From: Fenollaria massiliensis
GTDB taxonomy: Bacteria > Bacillota > Clostridia > Tissierellales > Peptoniphilaceae
Reading direction: 5' to 3'
Length of the DNA: 64,000 nt
Assembly: GCF_000312505.2 (NCBI RefSeq)
Contig: NZ_HG326227.1
Coordinates: forward strand, 62,001-126,000
A model generated the notes under the pieces. The model worked only from the letters and a program-made list of their open reading frames with translations. It was not told where the DNA came from and ran no database searches. The translations under genes and the position numbers were made by a program. This document shows positions 13,654 to 40,477 of this stretch, in pieces; the stretch's first letter is position 1; the number at the start of each line of letters is the position of its first letter.

Positions 13654-15585
13654 ATGTCAAAAATTAATGTAACACTACCTGACGGCTCAAGTAGAGAGTA
13701 TGAAAAAGGAGTCAAACTTTATGATGTGTGCAAAGACATATCAGAAGTATTATTAAGAGATGTATTAGGAGCCGTTGTTAATGGCACAACAATGGGTTTA
13801 CAAGAAACGCTAGAAGAAGATAGTAAAGTAAAATTTGTTAAATTTGAAGACAAAGAAGGTAAGGCTATATTTTGGCATACATCAGCCCATCTTATGGCTT
13901 ATGCAATACAAAGATTATACAAGGACGTTAAATTCGCGATAGGTCCATCAATTGACGATGGTTTTTACTATGACTTCGATACAGAACATAGATTTGTTCC
14001 AGAAGATTTTGAAAAGATAGAAAAAGAAATGACTGCCATAGTTAAAGAAGGCGGTATTCTTGAAAGATATGAAATGCCTAGGAATGAAGCGATTGAGCAC
14101 TTCAAGAAACTTGGTGAAAAATATAAAGTAGAATTAATCGAAGACCTTCCAGAAGATGCTCATATTTCATTCTACAAATTAGGTGACTTCGTTGACCTAT
14201 GCAAAGGACCACACCTTTATGACATCTCAAAGATTAAAGCATTTAAACTACTTTCAATTGCAGGCGCTTATTGGAGAGGAGACGAGCACAATGAAATGCT
14301 TCAAAGAATTTATGCTGTATCCTTCCCTAAGAAGAAGATGCTTGATGAGCATTTAGCAAGACTTGAAGAAGCAAAGCTTAGAGACCACAGAAAGATTGGC
14401 AAGGAGATGGATTTATTCAGCATGCATGACGAAGGACCAGGCTTCCCATTCTTCCATCCAAATGGAATGGTCGTTAGAAACGAGCTTTTATCATGGTGGA
14501 GAGATGTTTTAGCTAAGAATGGTTATGGCGAAATTTTAACACCTATCATCTTAAATGAAGACCTATGGCACAGAAGCGGTCACTGGGATCACTATAAAGA
14601 AAATATGTACTTTACTAAGATAGATGATAAAGATTATGCAATCAAACCAATGAACTGCCCAGGCTCAACTATAGTATACGCAAACAGCCAACACTCATAC
14701 AAAGAGCTTCCAATCAGACTTTCTGAGTTTGGTCAAGTACACAGACACGAACTTTCTGGTACATTACACGGATTATTCAGAGTAAGAACATTTACTCAAG
14801 ACGACGCTCACGTATATTGCTTGCCATCACAAGTTGAAGACGAAGTATTTAAGATGATAGACCTAGCAGACTATTTATACAGCACATTCGGTTTCAAATA
14901 CTCAGTTGAATTATCAACAAGACCTGATGATTTCATGGGCGAGATAGAAACTTGGAATATAGCTGAAGCGGCACTTAAGTCAGCACTTGAAAAGAGAGGT
15001 ATTAAATACACTATAAACGAAGGTGACGGCGCTTTCTATGGACCAAAGATTGACTTCCACTTAGAGGACGCTATAGGAAGAACTTGGCAATGCGGAACTA
15101 TTCAGCTAGATTTCCAAATGCCAATTAACTTCGATTTAACATATATCGATGAAAACGGCGAAAAGAAGAGACCAGTTATGCTTCACAGAGCTTTATTTGG
15201 CTCATTAGAAAGATTCTTAGGAATACTTATCGAACAATTTATCGGTAAGTTCCCACTATGGCTTGCACCAGTACAAGTAAAGATATTATCAATATCAGAA
15301 AAGTTCAACGACTATGCAAAATCTGTTTACGATGAACTAAAATCAAAGGGATACAGAGTTGTTCTTGATGATAGAAATGAAAAGATTGGCAAGAAGATAA
15401 GAGAAGCACAAGTTGAAAAAGTTGAGTATATGTTAATAATAGGTGAAGAAGAAGTTAATACAAATACAGTTACTATTAGACATAGAGACTTAGGAGATCA
15501 AGGAAAAGTATCATTAGATGACTTTATCGCTAGAATAAAAAAAGAAATCGATACTAAAGAAATTGTAAAAAAAGAAGATAAATAA
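13654..15585 (+). CDS. thrS: Threonyl-tRNA synthetase
   Basis: ThrRS charges tRNA-Thr. The protein has an N-terminal TGS domain (about 1-62), a second additional domain with the editing-site HTSAHLMAYA near residue 74 and DLCKGPHLYD near residue 183, and a class II catalytic core. The core contains MNCPGST, QVHRHELSG and RVRTFTQDDAHVYC. A C-terminal anticodon-binding domain follows (PVQVKILSIS onward). 643 aa is the full normal length. AGGAGG precedes the ATG. The T-box leader links expression to threonine tRNA charging. Confidence 0.98.
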   Translation: MSKINVTLPDGSSREYEKGVKLYDVCKDISEVLLRDVLGAVVNGTTMGLQETLEEDSKVKFVKFEDKEGKAIFWHTSAHLMAYAIQRLYKDVKFAIGPSIDDGFYYDFDTEHRFVPEDFEKIEKEMTAIVKEGGILERYEMPRNEAIEHFKKLGEKYKVELIEDLPEDAHISFYKLGDFVDLCKGPHLYDISKIKAFKLLSIAGAYWRGDEHNEMLQRIYAVSFPKKKMLDEHLARLEEAKLRDHRKIGKEMDLFSMHDEGPGFPFFHPNGMVVRNELLSWWRDVLAKNGYGEILTPIILNEDLWHRSGHWDHYKENMYFTKIDDKDYAIKPMNCPGSTIVYANSQHSYKELPIRLSEFGQVHRHELSGTLHGLFRVRTFTQDDAHVYCLPSQVEDEVFKMIDLADYLYSTFGFKYSVELSTRPDDFMGEIETWNIAEAALKSALEKRGIKYTINEGDGAFYGPKIDFHLEDAIGRTWQCGTIQLDFQMPINFDLTYIDENGEKKRPVMLHRALFGSLERFLGILIEQFIGKFPLWLAPVQVKILSISEKFNDYAKSVYDELKSKGYRVVLDDRNEKIGKKIREAQVEKVEYMLIIGEEEVNTNTVTIRHRDLGDQGKVSLDDFIARIKKEIDTKEIVKKEDK

Positions 15586-15636
15586 TATACTACTAAAGTA
15601 TGAAAATTAAGAAAAAATTAAAAAATTTATTTGATA

Positions 15637-15671
15637 ATCAAGGGAAATTTAAGATTTTCCTTGATTTTTTT
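15637..15671 (+). terminator. Intrinsic terminator after thrS
   Basis: An 11-bp stem (ATCAAGGGAAA with TTTTCCTTGAT) with a 7-base loop is followed by a T run. The 3' arm overlaps the -35 region of the next promoter. Confidence 0.92.
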
Positions 15672-15689
15672 GTGATTTTATTATATAAT
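15661..15689 (+). promoter_or_regulatory. Promoter of the NlpC/P60 gene, embedded in the thrS terminator
   Basis: TTGATT (15661-15666) and TATAAT (15684-15689) with a 17-base spacer. The -35 box lies in the terminator stem and tail, a compact back-to-back arrangement. GGGAGG follows before the ATG at 15716. Confidence 0.7.
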
Positions 15690-15715
15690 ATCTAATACCT
15701 AAGGGAGGTAATATA

Positions 15716-16741
15716 ATGAAAAACTCAAATCACAGATCATGCGTCTTGCTAGTTTCTTTATTTCTAATCTCATTGATTGGATTTAAAGACTATGGCGTTA
15801 TGGTTAAACCTTTCGTTAGCAAAGATAATGTAAAATTTAGCGATAAAGAAATTGTTAACATAATAAATGAAGATAATGACTCATATACAGTTAGTAAAAG
15901 CGGAAAAGTTATAGATATTTCTAAAGATTATTTGATAGTTACGCACAAAGATACAAAGATGTATAAAGTAGTGTCATTTACAGGTATTGCTGCGTCTAAG
16001 GGGCTTGCTCCTTTTGATTACTTGCTACCAGGAGATACTGTTGAGTTATTACAAAAAAGTGACGATGGATACATATTTGTAGACTCTAAGAAACGTGTTG
16101 GATTTATTGATATTAAAGATTTAGAGAATATCAAAGAAGCTAATTCAACACAAGCATATTCAAAGGTTAATAAGACTTTAAAGTCAGGAGATAAAACGCT
16201 TGCATTAAAGAGAAACGATAAGGTTAGTGTAATTGCTTATGACGGACAAACATTTACATTAAGTGATGGAACTAATTCATTTAAAGCTCATAAGAACGAT
16301 ATATCATTAACAGAATTAAAAGAAGAAAAAGTAGAAGTAGACAGATCAGCATACGCTGGCAGAAACGATGTCGCTGGACTTATAGATTTTGCTAAATCGC
16401 AAATAGGTAAGCCATACGTATTCGCGTCAGCTGGACCAGATAGCTTCGACTGCTCTGGCTTAGTTTATTATTGCTACAAGAGTGTTTTAGGTATAACTGT
16501 TCCAAGATCATCAGCAGCTCTTGTTTCATGCGGTGTTTCTGTTGAGAGAGAAGATTTACTTCCTGGCGATATACTTTTATTTAATACATCAGGTTCTGGT
16601 ATATCACATGCAGGTATTTATATAGGGGGCGGCAAGATGGTCCATGCATCAAGTGGACAGCTTATGAGCGTTGTTATTTCAGACATCGACTCAGGTTATT
16701 ATTTGCCAAGATTTGTCGCAGCTAGAAGAGTAATTAAATAA
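15716..16741 (+). CDS. Secreted NlpC/P60 cell-wall endopeptidase
   Basis: The C-terminal ~120 residues form an NlpC/P60 papain-like peptidase domain: GKPYVFASAGPDSFDCSGL with the catalytic Cys near residue 245, then ISHAGIYIG (catalytic His near 298) and MVHASS. Such enzymes cut D-glutamyl-diaminopimelate-type stem peptide bonds. The N-terminus has a signal-like hydrophobic stretch (CVLLVSLFLISLIGF), and the ~190 residues between look like two degenerate SH3-type wall-binding modules. It is monocistronic, with its own promoter and terminator. Confidence 0.92.
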   Translation: MKNSNHRSCVLLVSLFLISLIGFKDYGVMVKPFVSKDNVKFSDKEIVNIINEDNDSYTVSKSGKVIDISKDYLIVTHKDTKMYKVVSFTGIAASKGLAPFDYLLPGDTVELLQKSDDGYIFVDSKKRVGFIDIKDLENIKEANSTQAYSKVNKTLKSGDKTLALKRNDKVSVIAYDGQTFTLSDGTNSFKAHKNDISLTELKEEKVEVDRSAYAGRNDVAGLIDFAKSQIGKPYVFASAGPDSFDCSGLVYYCYKSVLGITVPRSSAALVSCGVSVEREDLLPGDILLFNTSGSGISHAGIYIGGGKMVHASSGQLMSVVISDIDSGYYLPRFVAARRVIK

Positions 16742-16749
16742 TTTATATT

Positions 16750-16774
16750 GAGCTCCTATTATGGAGCTCTTTTT
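16750..16774 (+). terminator. Terminator of the NlpC/P60 gene
   Basis: The perfect stem GAGCTCC/GGAGCTC with a six-base loop is followed by TTTTT, nine bases after the stop codon. Confidence 0.93.
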
Positions 16775-16817
16775 CATGTCGGGTGCATGAGATTATTTTC
16801 ATGTATGAGCCTCAATA

Positions 16818-16848
16818 AGAAAGGTCTAGTTATATCTAGACCTTTTTC
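16818..16848. repeat. Terminator-bearing direct repeat, copy 1 (left edge of the transporter module)
   Basis: This 31-bp stretch recurs at 24393-24423 with only two differences (an A/G change in each arm of the hairpin). The two copies bracket the AraC-ABC-ECF module. The hairpin within it is described separately. Confidence 0.9.
16821..16847. terminator. Terminator hairpin between the NlpC/P60 and araC genes
   Basis: AAGGTCTAG pairs with CTAGACCTT around a TTATAT loop, followed by TTT. On the plus strand it follows the NlpC/P60 terminator. On the minus strand it lies downstream of the araC-type stop, where the A-rich left flank gives a shorter T tail. Confidence 0.8.
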
Positions 16849-16899
16849 TTTGCTATTTTATTTTTTCTTTGCTATTTTATTCTTTCTTTGCTATTTTAT
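16843..16899. repeat. Three tandem 19-bp repeats at the 3' end of the AraC gene
   Basis: The unit TTTTTCTTTGCTATTTTAT occurs three times in a row; the third copy differs by one base. The last unit runs into the stop codon of the minus-strand AraC-type gene. Polymerase slippage could change the copy number. No function is evident. Confidence 0.9.
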
Positions 16900-17888
16900 T
16901 CGCAGTGATCACATTTTATCTCGTGGTGATTGCAAACTGAATTTCGTACCTCACTAGGAAGTTTTCCTTTGTATCTCTTGTAATATATGGAGAATTTACT
17001 TGCCGATGTGTATCCAACAGACTCTGCTATCTCTTTTATAGGCAGCCCTGTGTTTAGTAGAAGTGTTTCAGCCACATTCATTCTTTTTCTCTGAGTATAC
17101 TCTGTAATGCTTTGACCATATTTCTCTTTGAATAGATTTTTTAGTTTAGTTCCGCTCATTTTAGATATTTTTTCAAGAGTCCCTTGTTTTACATTCGTTT
17201 CAAAATGATCTTCTAAAAATCTAGCGACATCTTCAAGAGCTTTATCATCATCAATTTCAATTTTATATTTTTTTCTATTTAAGTATGTGTCAATCACTAT
17301 ACTTATCCACTCATTTGCCTTAGCTTTAAAGAAAAAATCAGCGGCGGGGGCATCCATCTTACAATTTAAAATTTCCATAGCCACTTTTTCTAAGGACTTT
17401 GTAAGAATAATTTGATTCGGTTGAAGTAAAGCTGAATAAAATGATTCTGTATCTATATTTATAGCTTCAAGATGTTTTTCTATTAGTTCTTTTTTAAAGC
17501 CAATGGAAACGGTAAGAAAATAACAATTCTCATGCAATAAAAAAACAAAATCATCTTTTATATTATCAAAATCAAAAGTACATAAAGAGTTCGCGGTAAG
17601 CGTTTGATATGGATTAAATTTTTCTCCGTTTGCGCTAACTATGTAGCTTGTGTAAATTGATACATAGTCTGCCATGCTATAGGTACTATTTCGAATTACT
17701 TCTTCTTTAATATAAAAATCATGTATATCAATAATGAAGCCGTCTCCTTCATAAAACCAATATAGGCCTTCTCCATAAGTAGAGTCCTCTTTTTTCCAAC
17801 AAAAAGTGTGGCCTGCACTTGAGTACTTCTTATTGTTTTTACATTCATCCACCATCATAAACTCTTTTACAAAATCATAATATGTCAT
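16896..17888 (-). CDS. AraC family transcriptional regulator
   Basis: A ~330-residue regulator with a C-terminal AraC/XylS DNA-binding domain of two helix-turn-helix units: ISKMSGTKLKNLFKEKYG and IKEIAESVGYTSASKFS, followed by the family YKRYKGKLPSEVR. The N-terminal ~210 residues show no cupin signature that I can name. I chose the ATG at 17888, preceded by AGGTG, over the TTG at 17912. It is divergent from the ABC genes, with a 160-base shared regulatory gap. This resembles YbtA-type regulators beside siderophore transporters, so control of the adjacent operon is inferred. Confidence 0.9.
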   Translation of the reverse strand: MTYYDFVKEFMMVDECKNNKKYSSAGHTFCWKKEDSTYGEGLYWFYEGDGFIIDIHDFYIKEEVIRNSTYSMADYVSIYTSYIVSANGEKFNPYQTLTANSLCTFDFDNIKDDFVFLLHENCYFLTVSIGFKKELIEKHLEAINIDTESFYSALLQPNQIILTKSLEKVAMEILNCKMDAPAADFFFKAKANEWISIVIDTYLNRKKYKIEIDDDKALEDVARFLEDHFETNVKQGTLEKISKMSGTKLKNLFKEKYGQSITEYTQRKRMNVAETLLLNTGLPIKEIAESVGYTSASKFSIYYKRYKGKLPSEVRNSVCNHHEIKCDHCE

Positions 17889-17937
17889 AATACACCTATC
17901 CCTTTTAGACAATATCCCTAATAGACTTAGTTAGCCG

Positions 17938-17964
17938 CAGCTATTGCATAATTAATTATAGCTG
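17938..17964. promoter_or_regulatory. Candidate AraC-regulator operator
   Basis: A perfect 7-bp inverted repeat, CAGCTAT (17938-17944) and ATAGCTG (17958-17964), with centres 20 bases apart. It overlaps the -35 box of the plus promoter and the -10 box of the minus promoter, an ideal place for a shared regulator. Binding is inferred. Confidence 0.5.
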
Positions 17965-17973
17965 ATGTATAAT
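17944..17973 (+). promoter_or_regulatory. Promoter of the ABC/ECF transporter operon
   Basis: TTGCAT (17944-17949) and TATAAT (17968-17973) with an 18-base spacer. The -35 box is a partial match, consistent with an activator-dependent promoter. Confidence 0.65.
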
Positions 17974-17983
17974 AAAAAAGCAA
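17955..17983 (-). promoter_or_regulatory. Divergent promoter of the AraC-type gene
   Basis: On the minus strand, TTGCTT (17983-17978) and TATAAT (17960-17955) are 17 bases apart. It overlaps the opposing promoter and the inverted repeat, so the two directions should compete or be co-regulated. Confidence 0.6.
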
Positions 17984-18047
17984 GGATAATATTTGCTAGC
18001 AAAGAAAATTTTATCTAAAAGGAATATCAAAGAAAGGAGATAATATT

Positions 18048-19802
18048 ATGAAGATTTACAAAAAACTATTTGCTTATGTACAGGATAAAAAATATCTTGG
18101 TTTTTTAGCTATAGTCTTTTCTGCTATATCTGCTGTACTTACGGTATATGGATTTTATTTAATCTACAAATTTCTGGATAATTTAATAATTAATTCAGAT
18201 TTATCTGGTGCAGAGAGCATAGCATTAAAATCTGTTATCACACTAACAAGTGGAGCAATATTTTATTTTGTTTCAGGAATGTTTTCACACTTATTGGGAT
18301 TTAGGCTTGAAACAAATTTAAGGAAGAGGGGGATCGATGGTTTAGAGAAAGCTAGTTTTAGGTTCTTTGACTTAAATCCATCTGGTCAAATAAGAAAGAT
18401 CATAGATGACAACGCCGCACAAACCCATCAGGTAGTAGCACACATGATACCTGATAGCTCTCAGGCAATAGTTACACCAGTACTTGTACTAGCACTCGGC
18501 TTTATAGTAAGTATAAGAGTTGGTATCACTTTACTTGCTCTTACAATAATCGGAGGCTTAATTTTGGGGGCAATGATGGGCGAGCAAAAATTTATGCAGA
18601 TATACCAAGAAGCTCTATCTAAACTAAGCGCTGAAACTGTTGAGTACGTTAGAGGGATGCAAGTTGTAAAGATATTTAGAGCAAATGTTGAGTCATTTAA
18701 AAGTTTCTACAAGGCGATAAAGGATTACTCGAAGTATGCTTATGATTATTCACTATCTTGTAAAAAGCCTTATGTTTTGTATCAATGCTTATTTTTTGGA
18801 CTGATTGCAATTTTAATTATTCCTATAGTTTATTTTATGACTAGCTTAGGCAGTACCAAGGTGATTTTACTTGAGCTTATCATGATTTTATTTTTATCAG
18901 GAGTTCTCTTTGTTTCATTTATGAGGATGATGTGGTACTCCTTGAACATCTCTAGAGGAAATTATGCAGTAGATACTTTAGAGGCACTTTACAAGGATAT
19001 GCAAAAAGACAAATTAGTGCATGGCAATGTCAATAATTTTAAAAACTATAATATAGAATTTGAAGGTGTAAGCTTTGCTTATAACGATAAAGCTGTCATT
19101 GAAAATTTATCCTTTAAATTAGAAGAAGGAAAGTCCTATGCACTAGTCGGTTCATCCGGATCAGGCAAATCAACAGTAGCAAAACTTATATCAGGTTTTT
19201 ACAATGTTAATGAAGGAAGCATAAAGATAGGCGGGATGCCAATATCTGAATATTCTGACGAAGCCTTAATTAAAGCCATATCCTTTGTTTTTCAAAGTTC
19301 AAAATTATTTAAGAAAAGCATTTATGACAATGTTGCTTTAGCTAATAAAGATGCGGGCAAAGATGACGTTATGAGAGCCTTAAAATTAGCAGGATGCGAT
19401 TTGATACTAGACAAATTCCCAGAAAGAGAAAATACAATCATAGGCTCAAAAGGAGTTTATTTATCTGGCGGAGAAAAACAAAGAATTGCAATTGCTAGGG
19501 CAATTTTAAAGGATTCCAAAATTATTATTATGGATGAGGCATCAGCATCTATTGACCCAGATAACGAGTTTGAATTGCAAAAAGCTTTCAAAAATCTTAT
19601 GAAGGATAAAACAGTTATCATGATTGCTCACAGGCTATCTACAATTAAAGACCTTGATGAAATACTTGTGATGGATTGTGGGAAAATTATAGAAAGAGGC
19701 TCTGACAAAGAATTAATGTCAAAAGATACAAGGTATAAGAGACTGCAAGAGATGTTTAACAGTGCGAATGAATGGAGGGTTTCAAATGAAGGAGTTTTAT
19801 AA
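18048..19802 (+). CDS. ABC transporter half-molecule, fused membrane and ATPase domains (YbtP/IrtA-like)
   Basis: A 584-residue exporter-fold half-transporter: six membrane helices in residues ~1-310, then an ATPase with Walker A GSSGSGKST near residue 367, signature LSGGEKQR near 470, Walker B IIIMDEASAS near 491 and the H-loop in AHRLS. It should pair with the next gene product. AraC-linked pairs of this architecture include YbtPQ and IrtAB, which import metal-siderophores despite the exporter fold. The actual substrate here is unknown. GGAG precedes the ATG. The 3' end overlaps the next gene. Confidence 0.92.
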   Translation: MKIYKKLFAYVQDKKYLGFLAIVFSAISAVLTVYGFYLIYKFLDNLIINSDLSGAESIALKSVITLTSGAIFYFVSGMFSHLLGFRLETNLRKRGIDGLEKASFRFFDLNPSGQIRKIIDDNAAQTHQVVAHMIPDSSQAIVTPVLVLALGFIVSIRVGITLLALTIIGGLILGAMMGEQKFMQIYQEALSKLSAETVEYVRGMQVVKIFRANVESFKSFYKAIKDYSKYAYDYSLSCKKPYVLYQCLFFGLIAILIIPIVYFMTSLGSTKVILLELIMILFLSGVLFVSFMRMMWYSLNISRGNYAVDTLEALYKDMQKDKLVHGNVNNFKNYNIEFEGVSFAYNDKAVIENLSFKLEEGKSYALVGSSGSGKSTVAKLISGFYNVNEGSIKIGGMPISEYSDEALIKAISFVFQSSKLFKKSIYDNVALANKDAGKDDVMRALKLAGCDLILDKFPERENTIIGSKGVYLSGGEKQRIAIARAILKDSKIIIMDEASASIDPDNEFELQKAFKNLMKDKTVIMIAHRLSTIKDLDEILVMDCGKIIERGSDKELMSKDTRYKRLQEMFNSANEWRVSNEGVL

Positions 19803-21507
19803 AAAAAGATTTGCTCTTACAGATAAAGGAGCAAGAAATTTAAGTAAAGCAACGCTGGCTTCATTTTTCGTTTATTGTATAAACATGCTTCCTGCAATAT
19901 TACTAATGATTTTTGCTCAGGAAGTTTTGGAAAATATTGTTAAAAGCAAGGGATTTTATATAGTATTCTCAGTTTTGACCTTGATAGCAATGTATATTTT
20001 GCTTTCTATCGAATACGATAAATTATATAGCACAACATATCAAGAAAGTGCGGACTTAAGAATAAGGACAGCGGAGAATTTATCAAAATTACCTCTGTCA
20101 TACTTTTCTAAACATGATATTTCAGACCTAGCACAGACAATCATGTCTGATATTGAAGGTATAGAGCATGCAATGAGCCACTCGATACCAAAAGTGGGCG
20201 GTATGGCACTCTTCTTCCCACTAATATCCATCATGATGCTAGTTAGCAATGTCAAGATGGGTTTAGCTGTAATTATTCCAACGATATTGAGCTTTATATT
20301 CATACCTTTATCTAAAAAATATTCAGTTAAGGGAGAAAAAAGATATTATGACGTTCTAAGAGAAAACTCAGAAAGCTTTCAAGAGAATATCGAGATGCAA
20401 ATGGAGATTAAAGCCTATGGCTTATCAGAAGAAATGAAAGAAAAGCTATATGAAAAAATGGATAAAAGCGAAAAAGTGCACTTAAAGACAGAAATAACTA
20501 CAATTTTAACTATGTCTATATCTTCAATATTTAGTTTTATTTCCCTTGCTGTTGTGATATTTGTTGGTGTAAATTTAATTATTAATAAAGAGATAAGTGC
20601 TCTCTACCTTGTTGGATATTTACTAGCAGCTATGAAGATAAAAGACGCTTTAGATGCATCTAAAGAGGGCTTGATGGAAATATTTTATTTATCGCCAAAA
20701 ATTGAAAGACTAAAAGAAATCCAAAATCAAGAATTACAAGAAGGCGATAACTATAATTTAAAAAAAATTGATATTGATCTAAAAGATGTTGAATTTGCCT
20801 ACAATAAAGACGCAAAAGTTTTAGATGGCGTAAGCTTTAAAGCAAAGCAAGGCGAGGTCACTGCTTTAGTAGGCGCAAGTGGCTGCGGTAAAACAACTAT
20901 CTTGAAACTTATATCAAGACTTTATGATTACGACGAGGGACAAATCTTAATCGATGGCAAAGATATAAAAGAAATATCAACAGAATCCCTTTTTGATAAG
21001 GTGTCTATTGTTTTCCAAGATGTAGTTCTATTTAATCAAAGCGTTATGGAAAATATTAGGATCGGAAAGCAAGATGCAAGTGACGAAGAAGTTAAAAGAG
21101 CAGCAAAACTTGCAAATTGCACAGATTTTATAGAAAAAATGGATAAGGGTTTCGATACAGTTATTGGTGAAAACGGTGCTGAACTATCAGGCGGAGAAAG
21201 ACAAAGGTTATCAATAGCCAGAGCCTTCTTAAAAGATGCACCGATATTGATCTTAGACGAGATAGCAGCAAGCCTTGATGTTGACAATGAGAAAAAAATT
21301 CAAGAGTCTTTAAACAATTTAATTAAAGATAAAACTGTTGTCATCATTTCACACAGAATGAAATCCATAGAAAATGCAGACAAGATTGTAGTTCTTGAAA
21401 ACGGAAAATTAGAAAGTGAAGGCAAGCATGAAGAGCTTTTACAAAAATCAAAAGTTTACAAGAATTTAATAGAAAAAACAAAAATGGCAGAAGAATTTAT
21501 TTATTAG
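19786..21507 (+). CDS. ABC transporter half-molecule, partner subunit (YbtQ/IrtB-like)
   Basis: A second exporter-type half-transporter of 573 residues. Six helices precede an ATPase with GASGCGKTT near residue 362, LSGGERQR near 467, LILDEIAASLD near 488 and SHRMK. The upstream in-frame ATG at 19762 lies deep in the previous gene; I chose ATG 19786 because GGAGG (19774-19778) precedes it. It overlaps its partner's end by 17 bases, which favours balanced synthesis of a heterodimer. The membrane segment SHSIPKVGGMALFFPLI is typical of the YbtQ-like branch. Confidence 0.92.
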   Translation: MKEFYKKRFALTDKGARNLSKATLASFFVYCINMLPAILLMIFAQEVLENIVKSKGFYIVFSVLTLIAMYILLSIEYDKLYSTTYQESADLRIRTAENLSKLPLSYFSKHDISDLAQTIMSDIEGIEHAMSHSIPKVGGMALFFPLISIMMLVSNVKMGLAVIIPTILSFIFIPLSKKYSVKGEKRYYDVLRENSESFQENIEMQMEIKAYGLSEEMKEKLYEKMDKSEKVHLKTEITTILTMSISSIFSFISLAVVIFVGVNLIINKEISALYLVGYLLAAMKIKDALDASKEGLMEIFYLSPKIERLKEIQNQELQEGDNYNLKKIDIDLKDVEFAYNKDAKVLDGVSFKAKQGEVTALVGASGCGKTTILKLISRLYDYDEGQILIDGKDIKEISTESLFDKVSIVFQDVVLFNQSVMENIRIGKQDASDEEVKRAAKLANCTDFIEKMDKGFDTVIGENGAELSGGERQRLSIARAFLKDAPILILDEIAASLDVDNEKKIQESLNNLIKDKTVVIISHRMKSIENADKIVVLENGKLESEGKHEELLQKSKVYKNLIEKTKMAEEFIY

Positions 21508-21517
21508 GAGGTTTAAA

Positions 21518-22117
21518 ATGAATAAAAATAATATGAATGGTCTAAAAACAAAGGATTTGATTACTATAGGGGTTTTCACAGCTCTCTATTTTATATTTAA
21601 TATGATTGGTGGAATGCCTTTTGGAATGAATCCTGTATTAACCTTTTATCAGCCAATGGGTAGTGCTCTTTTATCAGGAATAATATTTATGTTTCTGATC
21701 TCGAAAGTGGCTAAAAGGGGAACTATTGCTATTTTGGCAATAATAATTTGTATTTTGAGATTTGCAACTGGCATGCATTGGGCTATGGGTCTTGGAACTT
21801 TAGTTATGGGGATAATTGCTGAATTTATAGCAGGAAGCAAGGCTTATAAAAGTAAAAAAATTAACATCCTATCTTTTGGAGTATTTGCACTTGGAGATAT
21901 AGGGACTTTTGTCGTATATTTTATGGATCCTAAGTCTTGGTCAAATGCAATGATAGAAAAGGGGACAGATATAACATATATAGAGTCTATGAATGCAGCA
22001 GCTGCTGATTGGATGATTTATGTTATTGTAATTGGAACTTTTTTAGTTGCTTTATTTAGTGCTTTTATAGGTTCTAAACTTTTGAAAAAGCAATTTGAAA
22101 AGGCGGGTATTCTATGA
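21518..22117 (+). CDS. ECF transporter substrate-binding (S) component, MptD/Trep_Strep family
   Basis: A 199-residue membrane protein with five to six helices. It opens with a short cytoplasmic segment LKTKDLITIGVFTALYF, a typical S-component start. GMPFGMNPVLTFYQPMGSAL and ATGMHWAMGLGTLVMG resemble the MptD-like family (TIGR02185). The genes for the T and A components follow directly, so this is a dedicated (group I-like) ECF importer. The substrate is unknown; a heme or iron-related ligand is inferred from the AraC/YbtPQ-like neighbourhood. AGGAGG precedes the ATG. Confidence 0.85.
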   Translation: MNKNNMNGLKTKDLITIGVFTALYFIFNMIGGMPFGMNPVLTFYQPMGSALLSGIIFMFLISKVAKRGTIAILAIIICILRFATGMHWAMGLGTLVMGIIAEFIAGSKAYKSKKINILSFGVFALGDIGTFVVYFMDPKSWSNAMIEKGTDITYIESMNAAAADWMIYVIVIGTFLVALFSAFIGSKLLKKQFEKAGIL

Positions 22118-22830
22118 TTTCAGGAGAATTGAATACACATATTAATCCATGCACAAAAATAGTTTTGCTATTTTTGTGCATAATTATATCTAGTATATTG
22201 CCATCAATAGAATATGAATTAGCTTTTGTAGCATTAATTGCTATTTTTAGTCTTATAAATAGAAAAATAAAAATTGCATTTACTGGGATATTAATATATC
22301 TATTAGTTTATTTTCTTAGTATTTTAACTGTAAGATACGGAAGTAATACTTTTAGAAGTATATTTATGCCGTTTTTGGGTTTAGTTAATAAAATTTATCC
22401 GGTATGTATGCTTTCTATGACAATACTAAGCACAACGAAAGTGGGGGAATTTTTATCTGCTATGGATTACGTTAATGTTTCTAAAAAAATTTCTATTCCC
22501 CTAGCAGTAATGCTTAGGTATATGCCAACAGTAAAAGAAGATTGGCGATATATAAAAGATTCAATGGGGCTTAGAGGGATTTCTCCATCCTTTTTTGGAT
22601 TTATAAAAAACCCTTCTTTAACCGTAGAATGCATTTATTCTCCTATGATAATTATGGCAGCAAAAGCAGCAGATGAATTAACTATAGCTTCTATCACAAG
22701 AGGAATTGAATCACCAAATAAACGAACTTCAATTATAAGAATTAATTTTGGAATTTTAGATTATTTATCTCTAATAATTGGAGTAATAATTACTGCATTT
22801 ACAATATATTTGAGGTATTTTTATGATTAA
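22114..22830 (+). CDS. ecfT: ECF transporter transmembrane component EcfT
   Basis: A 238-residue T component that couples the S protein to the ATPase. Four to five helices are followed by the cytoplasmic coupling region VMLRYMPTVKEDW and MGLRGISPSFF. A second RG motif is in ASITRGIESP, and the two match the paired X-RG coupling motifs of EcfT. It overlaps the S-component stop by four bases and the ATPase start by eight. The base composition is visibly more AT-rich than in the flanking housekeeping genes. Confidence 0.9.
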   Translation: MISGELNTHINPCTKIVLLFLCIIISSILPSIEYELAFVALIAIFSLINRKIKIAFTGILIYLLVYFLSILTVRYGSNTFRSIFMPFLGLVNKIYPVCMLSMTILSTTKVGEFLSAMDYVNVSKKISIPLAVMLRYMPTVKEDWRYIKDSMGLRGISPSFFGFIKNPSLTVECIYSPMIIMAAKAADELTIASITRGIESPNKRTSIIRINFGILDYLSLIIGVIITAFTIYLRYFYD

Positions 22831-24227
22831 GTTAAATGAAGTTTGTTTCAAATATAGAAACACTAAGGATATTAGCCTAGATAATATAAATCTAGAAATA
22901 AAAAAAGGAGAGTTTATTTTAATATGTGGTTCTTCTGGATCTGGCAAAACCTCTATTACAAGGCTTATAAATAAGTTGATACCATATTATTATGAAGGAG
23001 ATTTAAATGGTGATGTAAAAAATAAATGATAAATTATTATCTAACTATCAAATGTTTGAACTTTCAAAAAATGTCGGAAGTGTTTTTCAAAATCCTAGAA
23101 CCCAATTCTTTAATGTGGATACAAATAGTGAAATTGTATTCGCACTAGAAAACCAAGGAGTAGAAAGAGAAATTTTAGAAAAGAAATTAGATGAAACCTG
23201 CAATAAATTAGAAATAAATAAACTAAAAAATAGAAATATTTTTCATTTATCTGGAGGAGAGAAACAAAAAATTGCTTTTGCATCAGTTTATGCAACAAAT
23301 CCAGATATTTATTTACTTGATGAGCCTTCTTCTAATTTGGATATACCGACAATAGATATATTAAAAAAACACTTATCAATGTTGAAGGAGAGTGGTAAAA
23401 CAGTTATTATATCTGAACATAGAATCTATTATATAATGGATTTAGTTGATAGAATTATTTATATGAAGAATGGGAAAATTGATAAAATTTTTTCCAATAA
23501 GGATTTTTTAAGTTTATCTGAAGATGAAATTAAGACTATGGGTTTAAGAACAAGAAACAAACCTAGTTTAAATATAAAAGAAAAATCACCAATTATAGAT
23601 AAGTCTTATTTACAGGTAAATAATGTTTCAATTTATAGGAAAGATAAATGCCTTATAGATAGACTTAATTTTTGTGCAAACAAGGGTGATATTATTGCTG
23701 TTTTAGGATCTAACGGCATAGGGAAAACTACTTTTTTAAGAACTCTTTGCGGACTTTATACTGATTATAAGGGTGAGTTTATTTTAAAATCTAAAAAAAT
23801 TGATGAAAAAGCAAGAAAGCAAATATCTTATATGGTTATGCAAGACGTAAATTATCAATTATTTGCTGAGAGTGTCTTTGCTGAATGTAAATTAGGGATA
23901 AAGAATGTAAAAGATGATTTAATTAATGAACTGCTAAATGATTTTGACTTATATAATTATAAAAACAGCCACCCTAACACTTTGTCTGGGGGACAAAAGC
24001 AAAGACTTGCCATAGTTTGTGGACTATTGTGTAACAAAGAAATTTTTATTTTAGACGAGCCTACAAGTGGGCTTGATTATAAAAATATGCTTAAAACTGT
24101 AGAATTATTGAAGTCACATTCAAAAGATAAAATAATTTTTATAGCTACCCATGATTTTGAATTTGCAAGTTTAATTTGTAATCGTGTATTAGATTTAGAA
24201 AAAAAACAAGATATACGTGTGATATAA
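22823..24227 (+). pseudogene. ecfA: Fused double ATPase of the ECF transporter (EcfA-EcfA'), interrupted by one frameshift
   Basis: Two ABC ATPase domains in one polypeptide energise the ECF importer. Domain 1 has Walker A GSSGSGKTS near residue 36 but its frame stops at 23027-23029. The protein continues in the next frame (KINDKLLSNYQMFELSKN) with VGSVFQNPRTQFF, LSGGEKQKI and YLLDEPSSNLD. Domain 2 has GSNGIGKTT, LSGGQKQRLA and FILDEPTSGLD. Removing one A from the six-A run at 23017-23022 restores a single ~468-aa protein. Every ATPase motif is intact, so this may be a sequence error. Confidence 0.88.
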
Positions 24228-24229
24228 TA

Positions 24230-24355
24230 GAGAAAATTTTTATAAAAATATCTGAGCTAATTAAAAAATATAGAAATAAAGATAAAATAATTTTTATCGT
24301 TTCACACGACATAGAATTTTTAAATGAAGTAGCTGATGAAGTTTATGAATTATAA
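24230..24355 (+). pseudogene. Remnant of a second ABC ATPase C-terminus
   Basis: In the frame ending at the TAA 24353-24355 the sequence reads SELIKKYRNKDKIIFIVSHD followed by IEFLNEVADEVYEL. This is the end of an ECF/cobalt-type ATPase, including the switch histidine. It closely resembles, but is not identical to, the last residues of the gene just upstream (DKIIFIATHDFEF). There is no start codon or Walker motif. It looks like the tail of an older or replaced ATPase gene left after recombination. Confidence 0.75.
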
Positions 24356-24392
24356 AAAAGTTTATATAAAATTTAAAACAGCAATATTTATG

Positions 24393-24423
24393 AGAAGGGT
24401 CTAGTTATATCTAGGCCTTTTTC
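24393..24423. repeat. Terminator-bearing direct repeat, copy 2 (right edge of the transporter module)
   Basis: Matches 29 of 31 bases with the copy at 16818-16848, in the same orientation. The module between the copies is 7.5 kb. Confidence 0.9.
24395..24423 (+). terminator. Terminator of the ABC/ECF operon
   Basis: AAGGGTCTAG pairs with CTAGGCCTTT (two G-T pairs) around a TTATAT loop, followed by T's. It is the only hairpin with a T tail between the ECF ATPase and recJ. Confidence 0.85.
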
Positions 24424-24456: not shown

Positions 24457-24544
24457 GCAATATAATCAAAACTTTAAGATTTTGTATATTACTTTTTTAT
24501 ATAGATTTTCTTTATAAAAAATGCTTTTAATATGAAGCAATTTA

Positions 24545-24553
24545 TGATATAAT
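24545..24553 (+). promoter_or_regulatory. Extended -10 promoter of recJ
   Basis: TGATATAAT (TG, one base, TATAAT) lies 29 bases before the recJ ATG. The -35 box is poor (TTTTAA at 24525-24530, spacer 17), as is common when an extended -10 is present. Confidence 0.65.
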
Positions 24554-24581
24554 AATTAAATATAGATAATGGGGTTATTGT

Positions 24582-26333
24582 ATGCAAAAATGGTTTTTGA
24601 AAAATAGAAATGCTGAAAATTATACGGCAGTTAAAAATATAGTAAAAGATGATTTATTAGCAAAAGTTCTTTGCAATAGAGGTATTGTAGAAGAGGGAGA
24701 AGTAATTGATTACTTAAATGATGACTACTCTTTAATCTACAGAACAGAAGGCCTTCCGGATTTGGAACCGGCTCGTAAAATTATTAAGGACGCTATTGAC
24801 AATCACAAAAAAATCAGAATCGTTGGCGATTATGACTCAGATGGCATCATGTCTACTACGCTTTTACTAAGAAGCCTTAAGACATTTAGAGCAGAGACTA
24901 GCTTTGAAGTGCCTGATAGAAAGCAAGATGGCTACGGCATTAACAAGCGCATTGTTGACGGCTGTATAAAAGACGACGTTTCTGTCATAATTACTTGTGA
25001 CAATGGTGTATCAGCCTTTGAAGCTGTGAAATATGCGAAAGATAATGGCATCAAGGTCATTGTGACAGACCACCACTTACCAAAAATTGAAGATGGTAAA
25101 GAGATTTCTGTTGAAGCGGATGCAATAATTGATCCAAAAGTAGAAAAATCTTCATATCCATTCAAGGATATATGCGGTGCCTTTGTGGCGTTTAAGCTAA
25201 TCACATATATTAGCAAGGACTATGAATTTAATGCGGATTTAATTGATGAAATTATTCAGTATGCCGCATTTGCAACTATAACAGACATTATGCCGCTACT
25301 TGATGAGAACAGAGATTTGATTAAAAGAGGCTTAGAACTAATAAATTCAAGACCAGCCAAGGCATTTTACCACTTGAAAAATGAGCTAAAAGTTGATAAG
25401 GAGATAAATGTATTTCATATTGGTTTTATTTTAGGGCCATCAGTCAATGCTATAGGCAGGTTAAGCAATGCAAATCACGCGATTGCAGCTTTTGAGTCTT
25501 ATGACGATGATAAGATTATAGCCATCTGCAAAGAGTTATACGCTTTAAATCAAGAGAGAAAAGATTTAACAGAGCTTGGTTATGAAGTAGCTATCAAAGA
25601 GATAGAGGCAGATGAAAATTTTCTTGATAAAGATGTAATAATTGTAAAATCAAAAGATATAGAAAGAAGCGTCGCGGGTATTGTAGCTGGAAGGCTTAAG
25701 GAAAGATACTATAGGCCAGCTATAGCTTTATACGAAGAAGACGGCGTTCTGTATGGTTCAGCTAGATCAATTGAAGAATACAATTTATTTGATGAGCTAA
25801 GCAAGGCAAAGGATTTTTTAAGTGGCTTTGGTGGACACAAATTAGCGGCAGGACTTGAACTAAAACTTGATAATTATGACAAATTCGTCACATTTATAAA
25901 TAACAATTCAAATTTAACGGACGAAGATAAGATAGAAAAAATTTACATCGACGCTTTTTATCCAATTGATTTTCAAAAGTTTTCGATTTTTGATACGATT
26001 GAAAAATTAAAACCATTTGGGGAGAAGAATCCGGATGTGTTATTTGCAGACAAGGATCTTGTTTTAAAAGATATAAGCGTTTTCGGACAGAATCGCAACG
26101 TTATAAAGCTAAAATTTAGAACTAAGCTTGACAACATCATGACGGCGATACTATTCTACAAAGAAGAAGAGTTTAAAAAAGACTACGAAGACGAGTTTAA
26201 TTCGGATATTTACAGAGATTTAGCGAGTGGCAAAGAGATAATCATGGATATTTGCTACAATCTTAGAATAAATGAGTATATGAACAATAAAAATCTTGAA
26301 ATAAATGTAAAGCACTTTAGATTTAGGAGGTGA
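24582..26333 (+). CDS. recJ: Single-stranded-DNA-specific exonuclease RecJ
   Basis: RecJ degrades single-stranded DNA 5' to 3' in recombination and repair. The DHH phosphoesterase motifs are present: IVGDYDSDGIMS near residue 80, the later ITCDNGVSAFE, and the name-giving VTDHHLP near 162. DHHA1 features such as GGHKLAAGLEL appear near residue 424. 583 aa is a full-length core enzyme. It heads an operon with the RSH gene, four bases downstream. Confidence 0.96.
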   Translation: MQKWFLKNRNAENYTAVKNIVKDDLLAKVLCNRGIVEEGEVIDYLNDDYSLIYRTEGLPDLEPARKIIKDAIDNHKKIRIVGDYDSDGIMSTTLLLRSLKTFRAETSFEVPDRKQDGYGINKRIVDGCIKDDVSVIITCDNGVSAFEAVKYAKDNGIKVIVTDHHLPKIEDGKEISVEADAIIDPKVEKSSYPFKDICGAFVAFKLITYISKDYEFNADLIDEIIQYAAFATITDIMPLLDENRDLIKRGLELINSRPAKAFYHLKNELKVDKEINVFHIGFILGPSVNAIGRLSNANHAIAAFESYDDDKIIAICKELYALNQERKDLTELGYEVAIKEIEADENFLDKDVIIVKSKDIERSVAGIVAGRLKERYYRPAIALYEEDGVLYGSARSIEEYNLFDELSKAKDFLSGFGGHKLAAGLELKLDNYDKFVTFINNNSNLTDEDKIEKIYIDAFYPIDFQKFSIFDTIEKLKPFGEKNPDVLFADKDLVLKDISVFGQNRNVIKLKFRTKLDNIMTAILFYKEEEFKKDYEDEFNSDIYRDLASGKEIIMDICYNLRINEYMNNKNLEINVKHFRFRR

Positions 26334-26337
26334 GCTT

Positions 26338-28482
26338 ATGATAGAAGATTTAATTAAAATTATTGAAAAATATATGACTGAAGAGGAAGTTGCCTTTGTA
26401 ATGAAGGCTTATGAATATGCAAAATTAATGCATAAGGATCAAAAGAGAAAGTCTGGTGAGCCTTATATTATTCACCCTGTCAATGTCGCTATCATACTAG
26501 CTGACCTTGATATGGACGTTGAAACCATTGTATCTGCTTTATTACACGACGTTGTTGAGGACACTCCAGCTACTTATGATGACATTAAAGAGATGTTTTC
26601 TGAAGATGTGGCTAAGATTGTTGACGGCGTAACTAAGTTAAACAAGCTTAATTATAAGAGCTCTGAGGCTTTCCAAGCAGAAAATCTTAGAAAAATGATT
26701 CTAGCTATGAATAATGATATAAGAGTCATAATAGTTAAGCTTGCGGATAGACTTCATAATCTTCGTACGCTTGAGTACATGAATGAAGAGAAGAGAAAGC
26801 AAAAGGCTCAAGAAACTATAGAGATATATGCACCACTTGCTGGAAGGCTCGGAATTTTCAAGATTAAGTGGGAACTTGAGGATTTATCATTAAGATATCT
26901 TGATCCAGAAGGATACTATGATTTGGTAGAGAAAATCAATAAAAAGAGAAGTGAACGTGAAAAAGAGATTAATGAGATTATTAAGAAGATATCAGCAGAG
27001 CTTGATAAGCAAGAGCTTCACTACGACATAAGCGGTAGGCCTAAGAATTTCTACAGCATATACAAGAAAATGAAGGGCAAGAGCAAAAGTTTTGAGTCCA
27101 TATATGATTTGATTGCGGTAAGAATTTTGGTCGACACAGTTAAGGACTGCTATGCGGTTCTTGGTATAGTTCACTCCATGTGGAAGCCTCTTCCAGGAAG
27201 ATTTAAAGACTACATAGCCATGCCTAAGCCAAACATGTATCAATCGCTTCACACAACAGTTATATCAGATACTGGCGAGATATTTGAAATACAGATCAGG
27301 ACATATGAAATGCATGAAGTGGCCGAGTATGGTATCGCTGCGCATTGGAAATACAAGGGCGGTAAGACTCAGGGTAAAGACGTTGATAGCAAGCTTGATT
27401 GGTTAAGGCAATTACTTGAGTGGCAAAAAGATTTAAAGGATCCAAAAGAGTTTATAGATACACTTAAGATAGATTTCTTCGATGATGAAGTATTTGTATT
27501 TACACCAAATGGTGATGTTGTCGACCTTCCAGAAGGATCAACTCCAGTTGACTTTGCTTACAGAGTTCACACAGGCGTTGGTAACACTTGTGTTGGCGCT
27601 AAAGTCGATTCAAGGATAGTTCCACTAAACTATAAGCTTAAGAATGGTAATATAGTTGAGGTTATCACACAAAAATCATCATCAGGTCCAAGTAGAGACT
27701 GGCTGAAATTTGTTAAGAGCCCAAGAGCTAGACAAAAGATAAAACAATGGTTTAAGTCTAAGGAAAAAGACATCAGCATAGAAAAAGGCAAGGAGCTATT
27801 TGATAGAGAAGCGAAAAAACTTGGCCTTGAAACAAATATTTTAGATAATGAAAAAATTTATCAAAAATTAGCAAAAGAGCTGTCGATAAACTCGATTAGT
27901 GATTTATTTGCGTCCATTGGATATGGCAATTTTAAAGAAAAATTAGTTATAAATAAAATTTTAAATATTAAAAATGCTATTGAAAATGTTGGCTTAACAA
28001 AAAATGAAGATGATTATCTAAAGAGCTCTTCATCGAAAAAAGACGCTACGGGCGTTAGAATAGATGGACTTGAGGGCATGAAGATAAAGTTTGCTAAGTG
28101 CTGTAACCCAGTTCCTGGTGATGAAATCATTGGTTTTGTTACTAGAGGCTATGGTGTATCTGTTCATAGAAAAGACTGTACAAACATTGCTAATTATCTT
28201 GACTCAGACAGATGCTTAGATGCCGAGTGGGACACTGAAGCTAGTGATAAATTCCTTGCAAATGTTACAATTAGAGCGGTTGACAGAACTGGTATACTAT
28301 CAGAAATAACCGCTATGGCTAAAGAAGCCAATGTTGGTATACAATCACTGAGCGCTAAGAGCAATACAATTAGCGATATATTTATATATTTGACGTTTGA
28401 AGTAGTAGGAAAGGATGAGCTTGATAAGATGATACAAAAACTTAAAACGATAAATGGAATTTTGGATGTTTACAGGGCATAG
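26338..28482 (+). CDS. relA: Bifunctional (p)ppGpp synthetase/hydrolase (RSH)
   Basis: This enzyme makes and degrades the stringent alarmones. The N-terminal hydrolase has the HD motif ALLHDVVEDT (His70-Asp71) and RLHNLRTLEYM, both consistent with an active hydrolase. The synthetase region has GRPKNFYSIYKKM and GRFKDYIAMPK plus YQSLHTTV. A TGS domain (VFVFTPNGDVVDLPEGS, near residue 385), a zinc-finger-like CCNPVPGDEI and a C-terminal ACT domain complete it. 714 aa is the usual long-RSH length. GGAGG before the ATG at 26338 follows the recJ stop. Confidence 0.97.
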   Translation: MIEDLIKIIEKYMTEEEVAFVMKAYEYAKLMHKDQKRKSGEPYIIHPVNVAIILADLDMDVETIVSALLHDVVEDTPATYDDIKEMFSEDVAKIVDGVTKLNKLNYKSSEAFQAENLRKMILAMNNDIRVIIVKLADRLHNLRTLEYMNEEKRKQKAQETIEIYAPLAGRLGIFKIKWELEDLSLRYLDPEGYYDLVEKINKKRSEREKEINEIIKKISAELDKQELHYDISGRPKNFYSIYKKMKGKSKSFESIYDLIAVRILVDTVKDCYAVLGIVHSMWKPLPGRFKDYIAMPKPNMYQSLHTTVISDTGEIFEIQIRTYEMHEVAEYGIAAHWKYKGGKTQGKDVDSKLDWLRQLLEWQKDLKDPKEFIDTLKIDFFDDEVFVFTPNGDVVDLPEGSTPVDFAYRVHTGVGNTCVGAKVDSRIVPLNYKLKNGNIVEVITQKSSSGPSRDWLKFVKSPRARQKIKQWFKSKEKDISIEKGKELFDREAKKLGLETNILDNEKIYQKLAKELSINSISDLFASIGYGNFKEKLVINKILNIKNAIENVGLTKNEDDYLKSSSSKKDATGVRIDGLEGMKIKFAKCCNPVPGDEIIGFVTRGYGVSVHRKDCTNIANYLDSDRCLDAEWDTEASDKFLANVTIRAVDRTGILSEITAMAKEANVGIQSLSAKSNTISDIFIYLTFEVVGKDELDKMIQKLKTINGILDVYRA

Positions 28483-28484
28483 AT

Positions 28485-28934
28485 ATGAGAGCAATTGTAC
28501 AGAGAGTAGAAGAAACTCGATTAGAAGTTGATGAAAAGCTTGTAAGCGAAATAAATGGCGGCCTTTTGGTGTATATCGCTGTTGAGGATGATGATACAGA
28601 GGCAGATCTTGAATATATCTTCAAAAAAGTCACTAATATGAGAATTTTTTCTGATGAAGATGACAAGATGAACCTATCTGTTCAAGATGTTCATGGCGAA
28701 ATACTTCTTGTTTCGCAGTTCACTTTATATGGTGACGCAAGAAAGGGCAATAGACCAAATTTCATGAGAAGCGCTAAGGCTGAGAAAGCTGAAAGCTATT
28801 ACGAAATATTTAAAGAAAAATTAAAAGCAAGTGGAATAAAATTTAAATCAGGAGTTTTTGGAGCAGATATGCACATACATGCGCATCTTTCTGGACCTGT
28901 GACAATATTATTGGATTCGAAGAAGGAGTTTTAA
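28485..28934 (+). CDS. dtd: D-aminoacyl-tRNA deacylase
   Basis: Dtd removes D-amino acids (and glycine from mischarged tRNA-Ala). The opening MRAIVQRVEETRLEV and the active-site LVSQFTLYGDARKGNRPNF are diagnostic. The C-terminal GVFGADM leads to a GPVT that supplies the cross-subunit Gly-cisPro proofreading motif. The two residues before it are LS where most homologues have ND. 149 aa is normal. It sits directly after the RSH gene, the usual Bacillota order. Confidence 0.95.
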   Translation: MRAIVQRVEETRLEVDEKLVSEINGGLLVYIAVEDDDTEADLEYIFKKVTNMRIFSDEDDKMNLSVQDVHGEILLVSQFTLYGDARKGNRPNFMRSAKAEKAESYYEIFKEKLKASGIKFKSGVFGADMHIHAHLSGPVTILLDSKKEF

Positions 28935-40021: not shown

Positions 40022-40031
40022 GAGGTTTATT

Positions 40032-40477
40032 ATGGGTTTTATGGACAAAGTTAAGTATTTCTTAGGATTCGGCGATGACGATTACGATGAAGAATACTAT
40101 GACGATGAAGATGAAGTTGTAGAGGAAGAGCCACAAAAGGAAACATCTATCTTCTCAAGAAAAAAGAAAAGGAAAATGTTGTTCCTATTCAAAGAAAAAC
40201 TGGATCTATGGTGATCACAGTACAAGAACCACTTGGCTACGATGAAGCGCCACTAATTATTGACGATTTAAGATTAGGCAAGGCAGTTGTTGTTAATTTT
40301 GAACAACTAGAAGCAAGTGTAAAAAGACAAATTTTTGACTTTATCAATGGCGGCATCTACGCTATCGACGGAAGCATTCAAAAAGTGACTAGAGACATCT
40401 TTGTTTTAGCACCAAAGAACATTGCAATAGACGGCTTAAAAGATGAACTTAAAAGCAGAGGCATGTTTCCATTTTAA
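40032..40477 (+). pseudogene. sepF: Cell division protein SepF, interrupted by one frameshift
   Basis: SepF anchors FtsZ and helps Z-ring assembly. The first frame (ATG 40032, after GGAGG) encodes the amphipathic N-terminal helix MGFMDKVKYFLGFGDDD and acidic linker, then stops at 40214. The C-terminal core reads KENVVPIQRKTGSMVITVQE and onward in another frame to 40477 (IFDFINGGIYAIDGSIQKV). Adding one A within the A runs at 40160-40176 restores a single ~149-aa SepF. DivIVA is not present in the nearby division genes. A sequence error is likely, since the gene is important. Confidence 0.9.

Follow-up and report, generated by a model that had tools for sequence, protein, structure and literature searches.

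A 64-kb window of the Fenollaria massiliensis genome (64,000 nt, the whole stretch analyzed here; the genome holds 1,709,677 bases in 7 contigs) contains a gene for an AraC-family regulator, divergent genes for two exporter-fold ATP-binding cassette (ABC) half-transporters (abc1 and abc2), and an energy-coupling factor (ECF) importer cassette encoding an S component, a T component, and a double ATPase (EcfAA). We consider it probable that this locus is a metallophore-uptake site made of two separable units, and that its ECF cassette imports a foreign aryl-thiazoline nonribosomal peptide metallophore of the yersiniabactin/equibactin kind. The constant unit would be formed by the AraC regulator and an ABC pair similar to YbtPQ and IrtAB, and the exchangeable unit by the S-T-AA cassette, in which the S protein would set the ligand. 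The observed basis is the architecture of the locus, the exchange of cassettes, the scars, the co-localization of the S family with thiazolinyl imide reductases, and the lack of condensation domains in the host. The transport set is of a known kind; the exchange of its cassette behind a constant AraC-ABC unit is an unusual evolutionary habit.

Gene content of the locus

The locus is flanked by nlpC and recJ, with araC on the reverse strand and abc1, abc2, S, T, and the double ATPase on the forward strand. Its features are as follows.

16896..17912, reverse strand: AraC-family regulator, divergent (HTH_18, E 2.9e-20); its ATG start is probably at 17888
17897..18026, no strand: intergenic control region containing an inverted repeat of 19 nt (arms at 17897-17915 and at 18008-18026, 84% complementary; repeat search)
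18048..19802, forward: ABC half-transporter 1, exporter fold, YbtP/IrtA-like (PF00664 and PF00005, tree)
19786..21507, forward: ABC half-transporter 2 (PF00664 and PF00005, tree)
21508..21530, no strand: left-hand boundary of the exchanged cassette, at the stop of abc2 and the ribosome site of S (DNA identity blocks)
21518..22117, forward: ECF S component, Trep_Strep/MptD family (PF09605, 187 bits; TIGR02185 "MptD family," 132.9 bits)
22114..22830, forward: ECF T component, CbiQ-like (PF02361, 38.4 bits, E 1.3e-9, cut-off 25)
22823..23029, forward: first part of EcfAA, with the domain 1 Walker A followed by a frameshift and a stop (open reading frame (ORF)/domain scan)
23052..24227, forward: remainder of EcfAA in another frame, domain 1 from the Q-loop to its end and the whole of domain 2
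24230..24352, forward: putative scar, a 41-codon tail of the displaced resident EcfA of the "454" type (identity to EcfA ends)

The gene starts in the run from abc1 to T overlap or nearly touch. The domain matches and coordinates thus bear out the first-pass annotation as to the AraC regulator, the exporter-fold pair, and S and T genes with overlapping or nearly touching starts. Assignment to the dedicated-module (group I) ECF importers is supported by an S component above the cut-offs of both PF09605 and TIGR02185 and a T component above that of PF02361, while the NCBIfam scan of the T component gave no match. The F. massiliensis genome has five Trep_Strep S genes, including the one in the window, and all five are adjoined by a T gene, a double ATPase gene, and an ABC pair, so the combination is not due to chance. 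An AraC match was found at only two of these five loci, the window locus and one on contig C5.

Structure prediction, which had been proposed as a check, placed the fold of the S protein near known S components and mildly supports the family assignment. The AlphaFold2 model has a predicted local distance difference test score (pLDDT) of 90, and S components are on top of its VIA list (5edl, Z 12.5; ThiT, Z 10.5), followed by unrelated folds from Z 9.3 down, among them methane monooxygenase subunits at Z ~9; the support is mild because a Z under ~13 can reflect a common shape in helical bundles. A Foldseek search with the model yielded no row at E ≤0.001, and a PDB sequence search with the S profile found nothing but YkoE (5edl, E 0.19).

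Linkage of the S family to thiazoline-metallophore clusters

Searching 130 genomes of the F. massiliensis family at the DNA level revealed the window cassette at 97–98% identity in four genomes of the genus Anaerococcus (G078, G080, G092, and G072) and at 77% in G065. In two of these Anaerococcus genomes (G092 and G072), the cassette (S 98%, T 95%, and A 97% identical) ends an aryl/thiazoline nonribosomal peptide synthetase (NRPS) cluster. This one-strand run encodes a DAHP synthase, a thioesterase, a phosphopantetheinyl transferase (PPTase), an enzyme similar to (2,3-dihydroxybenzoyl)adenylate synthase and salicylate-AMP ligase, an NRPS of 2069 aa, an NRPS of 1811 aa with a methyltransferase and a thioesterase, a 373-aa protein, a thiazolinyl imide reductase (TIGR01761, 264 bits; Irp3-like C-terminus), and then S, T, and AA; most of its genes were domain-scanned in one of the genomes, and the ORF lengths agree in the other where seen. 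One strain that carries both the cassette and the biosynthesis genes is Anaerococcus sp. Marseille-P3915. A separate set of araC (43%), two ABC genes (67%), and a MATE gene (97%) adjoins the cluster, whose gene content suggests the yersiniabactin/pyochelin/equibactin type. Similarly, in Ezakiella coagulans (G102) two NRPS genes, the reductase, a 198-aa ORF, S, T, AA, two ABC genes, and a MATE gene stand in one row.

The co-localization extends beyond these clusters. Reductases above the TIGR01761 cut-off were found in 13 of the 130 family genomes, and in all 13 a Trep_Strep S gene lies within 20 kb of the reductase (12 in the first count, against ~1.3 expected under a rough model; at 1.7 kb in G093). 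Among 391 genomes of the class, the reductase occurs in eight, two of them already counted among the family; in the other six, an S gene is located within 10 kb in four, at 21.2 kb in one, and nowhere on the reductase contig in one. In the 197 Streptococcus genomes, one reductase exceeds the cut-off and has S at 1.7 kb, and a split copy that falls short of it has S at 4.9 kb. Overall, an S-family gene is found within 20 kb of the reductase in 18 of the 20 genomes with an above-cut-off reductase. The Trep_Strep/MptD S family, which NCBIfam names "putative" only and which has matches in 90 of the 130 family genomes (E ≤1e-10), had been described as largely undefined in its ligand; the linkage to thiazolinyl imide reductases now gives a lead to a ligand class that is directly testable. 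Of the iron, siderophore, or heme link suggested at first pass, the metal/siderophore part is retained and narrowed to thiazoline-type nonribosomal peptide metallophores, and heme appears very improbable. Another type of cluster, which has its own Trep_Strep importer and NRPS genes and contains two or three copies of the thiazolinyl reductase, was seen in G025:C6 (L189), and the same spacing of repeated reductases recurs in G061:C28, G089:C11, G094:C6, G068:C1, G139:C5, and Finegoldia magna (G007:C1 and C10).

The F. massiliensis genome itself gave no match to TIGR01761 or to the condensation domain PF00668, so the host cannot make a yersiniabactin-like chelator, and the lack of biosynthesis genes points to uptake of a foreign metallophore, which would be made by neighbours such as Anaerococcus. 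The condensation domain is missing from 6 of the 11 genomes scanned (F. massiliensis, G002, G078, G065, G020, and the S. mitis record); Fenollaria timonensis has two condensation matches and no reductase.

The closest described parallel is the equibactin locus of Streptococcus equi (eqbA-N, ICESe2), where an importer and a YbtPQ-like pair stand beside a PPTase, a salicyl-AMP ligase, two NRPSs, and a thiazoline reductase (PMC3672683). In that species, most of the equibactin-dependent iron accumulation was lost when eqbHIJ was deleted, whereas the iron-toxicity phenotype still arose without the YbtPQ-like eqbKL, for which the authors suggest a role in efflux (PMC3672683). In a Streptococcus locus (L187), a PPTase, an aryl-AMP ligase, an NRPS, a reductase, and a second NRPS are followed in turn by S, T, AA (split into pieces), and ABC; its S is 35–37%, its T 27%, and its A (three pieces) 35–53% identical to the cassettes considered here. 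This order fits the equibactin cluster, and eqbHIJ is therefore probably an ECF importer with an S component of the Trep_Strep/MptD family. The S-T-AA cassette and the ABC pair are homologous to the transport genes of equibactin-type clusters, as compared in G092/G072, L187, and G102, with S. equi not identified by name. Unlike the equibactin locus, F. massiliensis lacks a condensation domain and a thiazoline reductase, its regulator is AraC rather than the DtxR-like EqbA, and its cassette is exchangeable. A Clostridium difficile element, 023_CTn1, also has an AraC regulator, an ABC ATPase, an ECF T component, a membrane protein, and a thiazolinyl imide reductase in a row, in a cluster called equibactin-related; it differs in carrying the whole biosynthesis cluster on a conjugative element, and the accessible part of the source describes no cassette exchange (PMC6814731).

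By analogy with how ECF importers are known to work and with the genetics of equibactin, the S protein would capture the metal complex on the outer side and pass it to T-AA for ATP-driven import. The ABC pair would act in parallel, either as an importer in the manner of YbtPQ/IrtAB or as an exporter of the metallophore, accompanied in some loci by the MATE protein.

Cassette exchange behind a constant AraC-ABC unit

One and the same chromosomal site carries the window cassette in F. massiliensis, a different cassette in a second Fenollaria genome (G002), and only a remnant in F. timonensis (G001, NZ_LN898230.1), where the cassette is gone and the EcfA remnant stays. The AraC-ABC-ABC proteins of G002 are 90–97% identical to those of the window; its ABC pair is followed by a putative MATE gene (a label that rests on a PF01554-type family, the G002 gene itself being outside the domain scan) and then by a cassette with 32% (S), 29% (T), and 43% (A) identity. 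At the DNA level, identity to G002 is 89% over 15419-21528, falls to 45–67% per 150-base block across most of the cassette, and resumes at 24244-24421 (88%) and 24498-29990 (81%). Just left of the junction, at 20900-21500, it reaches 99–100% to G002 and Anaerococcus lactolyticus (L066 and L071). The pattern is reversed in comparison with Anaerococcus nagyae (L095) and L111, where araC is 83%, abc1-abc2 90–93%, and S-T-A 95–99.5% identical.

The tail at 24230-24352 is 87–92% identical to the EcfA ends of L058, L065, and L066 (DNA 88–89%), and this identity marks 24244-24352 as the last part of the resident EcfA, left behind as a scar when the gene was replaced. An ABC-F resistance remnant, indicated for this tail by weak NCBIfam rows, was rejected, as the tail matches the displaced EcfA end. 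The simplest history suggested by these blocks is that recombination brought a foreign cassette into a locus already present, one crossover falling at the end of abc2 and another in the tail of EcfA. No account of such a cassette exchange was found in the literature searched, which mostly left out subscription papers, nor did the search find a paper treating Trep_Strep and ECF transporters together.

The genome-neighbourhood survey that had been recommended was run, and it shows that AraC and the ABC pair recur across genera, while the cassette behind them varies. The AraC scan yielded 45 named loci with 76–90% identity to the F. massiliensis regulator, of which 33 have a full-length ABC pair; the remaining 12, with a truncated, different, or missing pair, were left out of the pair count. 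Twenty-five pairs belong to type a (84–97% identical to the F. massiliensis pair, nearly all at least 90%) and eight to type b (66–71%). Judged on ~10 kb of flank, a cassette follows the pair in 21 of the 33 loci (9 of type "454," 10 of type "462," and 2 of the window type). The "462" cassette is found behind both types of pair, and the type a pair carries all three cassettes, which shows that the parts reassort. The loop after helix 3 of the S component also varies by cassette (TGMHW, MGHTY, or TGQFS), as may be expected if the ligands differ.

The remaining 12 loci have a pair without an ECF cassette. Eight of them share one deletion junction, where TTAGGAGG, with the stop of abc2 and the ribosome site of S, runs directly into the EcfA signature motif GGAGGACA, a scar of the kind a microhomology deletion may leave; two of the four others keep an A or T remnant. 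In seven tested cassetteless loci, the ABC pair is free of stops and has a ratio of nonsynonymous to synonymous substitution rates (dN/dS) of 0.06–0.13 against the F. massiliensis pair, and so it seems to be useful alone. The view of the first-pass annotation that two machines in one fixed operon share a single substrate is thus not supported in that form, given the pairs without a cassette and the different cassettes behind the same pair. The hosts include genera that we take to belong to Peptoniphilaceae, as well as records named Streptococcus mitis, Facklamia, Megasphaera, Negativicoccus, and Criibacterium, some of which may be contaminants. The record named Streptococcus mitis (L074, NZ_SPGF01000031.1) has an ABC pair with 93–95% identity, an AraC with 88%, and a "454" cassette, reflecting either transfer or contamination.

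In a tree of 25 rows that has only 5 other E. coli exporters and whose fork is drawn open, the ABC pairs fall together with YbtP/YbtQ (support 94/95), and MsbA, MdlAB, and CydCD stand outside this group. For abc1, IrtA and 6p6i, presumably YbtPQ, are the best bacterial half-transporters among the best 60 of 305 PDB rows; for abc2, TM288 is the best, and YbtPQ and IrtAB are absent among the best 60 of 321. The relation is distant, as the pair scores 203–248 bits against YbtP/YbtQ and 193–237 bits against MsbA, and abc2 alone is scarcely nearer to YbtQ (248 bits) than to MsbA (237 bits). AraC is divergent from the pair in F. massiliensis, as YbtA is in E. coli CFT073; the YbtA-YbtPQ system differs in having no ECF gene in the stretch seen. 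The intergenic control region is largely kept in an alignment of F. massiliensis with 27 chosen loci, and its inverted repeat is the likely AraC operator, from which AraC would control the divergent operon. The core pattern of the repeat occurs twice in the window, both times in the control region, against 0.64 expected with one mismatch, and at least two occurrences were found in 10 of 100 shuffles, so that this count is weak alone.

A wider proposal, which we advance tentatively, is that the constant AraC-YbtPQ-like unit serves across anaerobe lineages as a docking site for recombining ECF cassettes, a platform for metallophore piracy. Organisms that make no metallophore could thereby switch to that of another neighbour, and could shed the cassette again through a deletion that runs from the ribosome site of S to the EcfA signature motif. 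If true, this would explain how host-associated anaerobes making no siderophore may compete for metal, and ECF specificity could shift as cassettes are swapped while the regulator and the ABC pair stay the same.

The EcfAA break and alternative readings

Several observations weigh against metallophore import by the window cassette. The aryl-AMP ligase of the Anaerococcus cluster scores 527.7 bits, short of its NCBIfam cut-off of 723.55 bits, and only two of the four relatives with the 97–98% cassette have the reductase cluster. The genomes are related and the clusters mobile, which reduces the linkage to fewer than 20 independent cases; one reductase contig (G408) carries no S gene, and a genome with a below-cut-off reductase (G081) has no Trep_Strep match. 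The S proteins of the other cassettes are ~30% identical to that of F. massiliensis, so that linkage across the family can point to no more than a class of ligand. AraC aligns with YbtA in the helix-turn-helix region only (75 residues, 31%), and the sensor domains are not recognizably related. Finally, EcfAA is broken as sequenced, and the importer of the F. massiliensis strain may therefore not work.

The first Walker A of EcfAA (GSSGSGKT) is encoded in 22823-23026 (68 codons), in a frame that stops at 23029; the frameshift falls in an A run, and the rest of EcfAA is in another frame. Both ATPase domains are recognizable, yet divided over two frames in F. massiliensis, whereas EcfAA is a single intact ORF of 464–465 codons in four relatives. 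The complete ECF importer claimed at first pass, with 23052-24227 as its ATPase gene, was thus rejected, as that ORF is without the first Walker A; the S and T parts of the claim hold. A programmed frameshift is ruled out by the unbroken EcfAA of A. nagyae (L095) and Anaerococcus sp. 9403502 (L111) and by the full-length single ORFs in the four relatives. The "462"-cassette EcfA of Anaerococcus provencensis (L096) matches in three pieces and may be frameshifted too.

The break might mean that the ECF part of F. massiliensis is a dying remnant, transferred in and already losing its ATPase. This agrees with the absence of the frameshift from the four relatives and with the frequent loss of cassettes elsewhere (8 shared-scar and 4 other cassetteless loci of 33). 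We nonetheless regard it as unlikely. The later part of EcfAA has a dN/dS of 0.12–0.22 against three intact relatives and is under purifying selection. The window has three further split ORFs (4732-5867, 6588-7342, and 40002-40474) that are conserved in G002, two of them cobalamin genes (CbiG-like and precorrin-6A-reductase-like), in a comparison in which 61 of 75 G002 ORFs of at least 100 aa had a 50% match. An A/T run of at least 5 is present in all four breaks, a feature found in 10% of the window's stretches of 15 bases and in 34% of those of 50 bases. That the other conserved ORFs are also broken at A/T runs suggests homopolymer miscalls in the assembly. The type genome (1.71 Mb, 8 scaffolds, 11 contigs) was reported as mainly 454-sequenced at 19.7x (PMC4148993), and overall the evidence leans to a sequencing miscall in EcfAA.

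Import of the same thiazoline metallophores as zinc rather than iron complexes is rather improbable. It is favored by Mycobacterium avium ssp. paratuberculosis, where mptABC, located beside mptDEF and a sid cluster, is regulated by zinc through FurB and not by iron (PMC4298942), a case that also counts against the preferred reading, and by the annotation of YbtX as a yersiniabactin-associated zinc transporter; eqbHIJ, on the other hand, serves iron accumulation (PMC3672683). The mycobacterial set resembles the window locus, as far as the family name allows the two to be likened, in that an IrtAB-like transporter adjoins a second transporter and the NCBIfam S family is named after MptD, from which name mptDEF may be of the ECF type. 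It differs in its zinc/FurB control, its actinobacterial host, and the adjacent sid cluster (PMC4298942).

It is quite improbable that the ABC pair exports antimicrobials or metabolites and only happens to lie in one operon with a vitamin ECF importer unrelated to it. The exporter fold, the optional MATE neighbour, the 12 of 33 loci without a cassette, and the lead of TM288 over YbtPQ/IrtAB in the abc2 search agree with such a role, and YbtPQ has itself been linked to lowered drug susceptibility (PMC7876324). Against it stand the ABC pairs at all five Trep_Strep loci of F. massiliensis, the grouping of the pairs with YbtP/YbtQ, and the occurrence of such pairs in or beside NRPS clusters.

Least probable is import of heme by S-T-AA, with the ABC pair handling heme or its metal, as suggested by LhaSTA and by the group A Streptococcus heme ECF transporter, which we take to be SiaFGH; these share ECF logic and a role in iron nutrition with the window locus, likened by description and not by sequence, and differ in their heme ligand. 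Heme importers of this kind are known from staphylococci (LhaSTA; PMC7299338) and cited for group A Streptococcus (PMC9237417, PMC11282960), but the linkage observed here is to thiazolinyl imide reductases, and the annotated neighbours include no heme genes, although no search aimed at heme genes was made.

The four other double ATPases of the F. massiliensis genome are single ORFs. At two of these extra loci (L006-L009, on contigs C1, C2, and C5), a single fused protein combines T and the double ATPase (727 and 721 aa), T being attached at a different end in each. A short ORF after the pair on C5 (L007:9702-10220) combines a DNA-binding domain of the iron-dependent repressor type with a piece of MatE.

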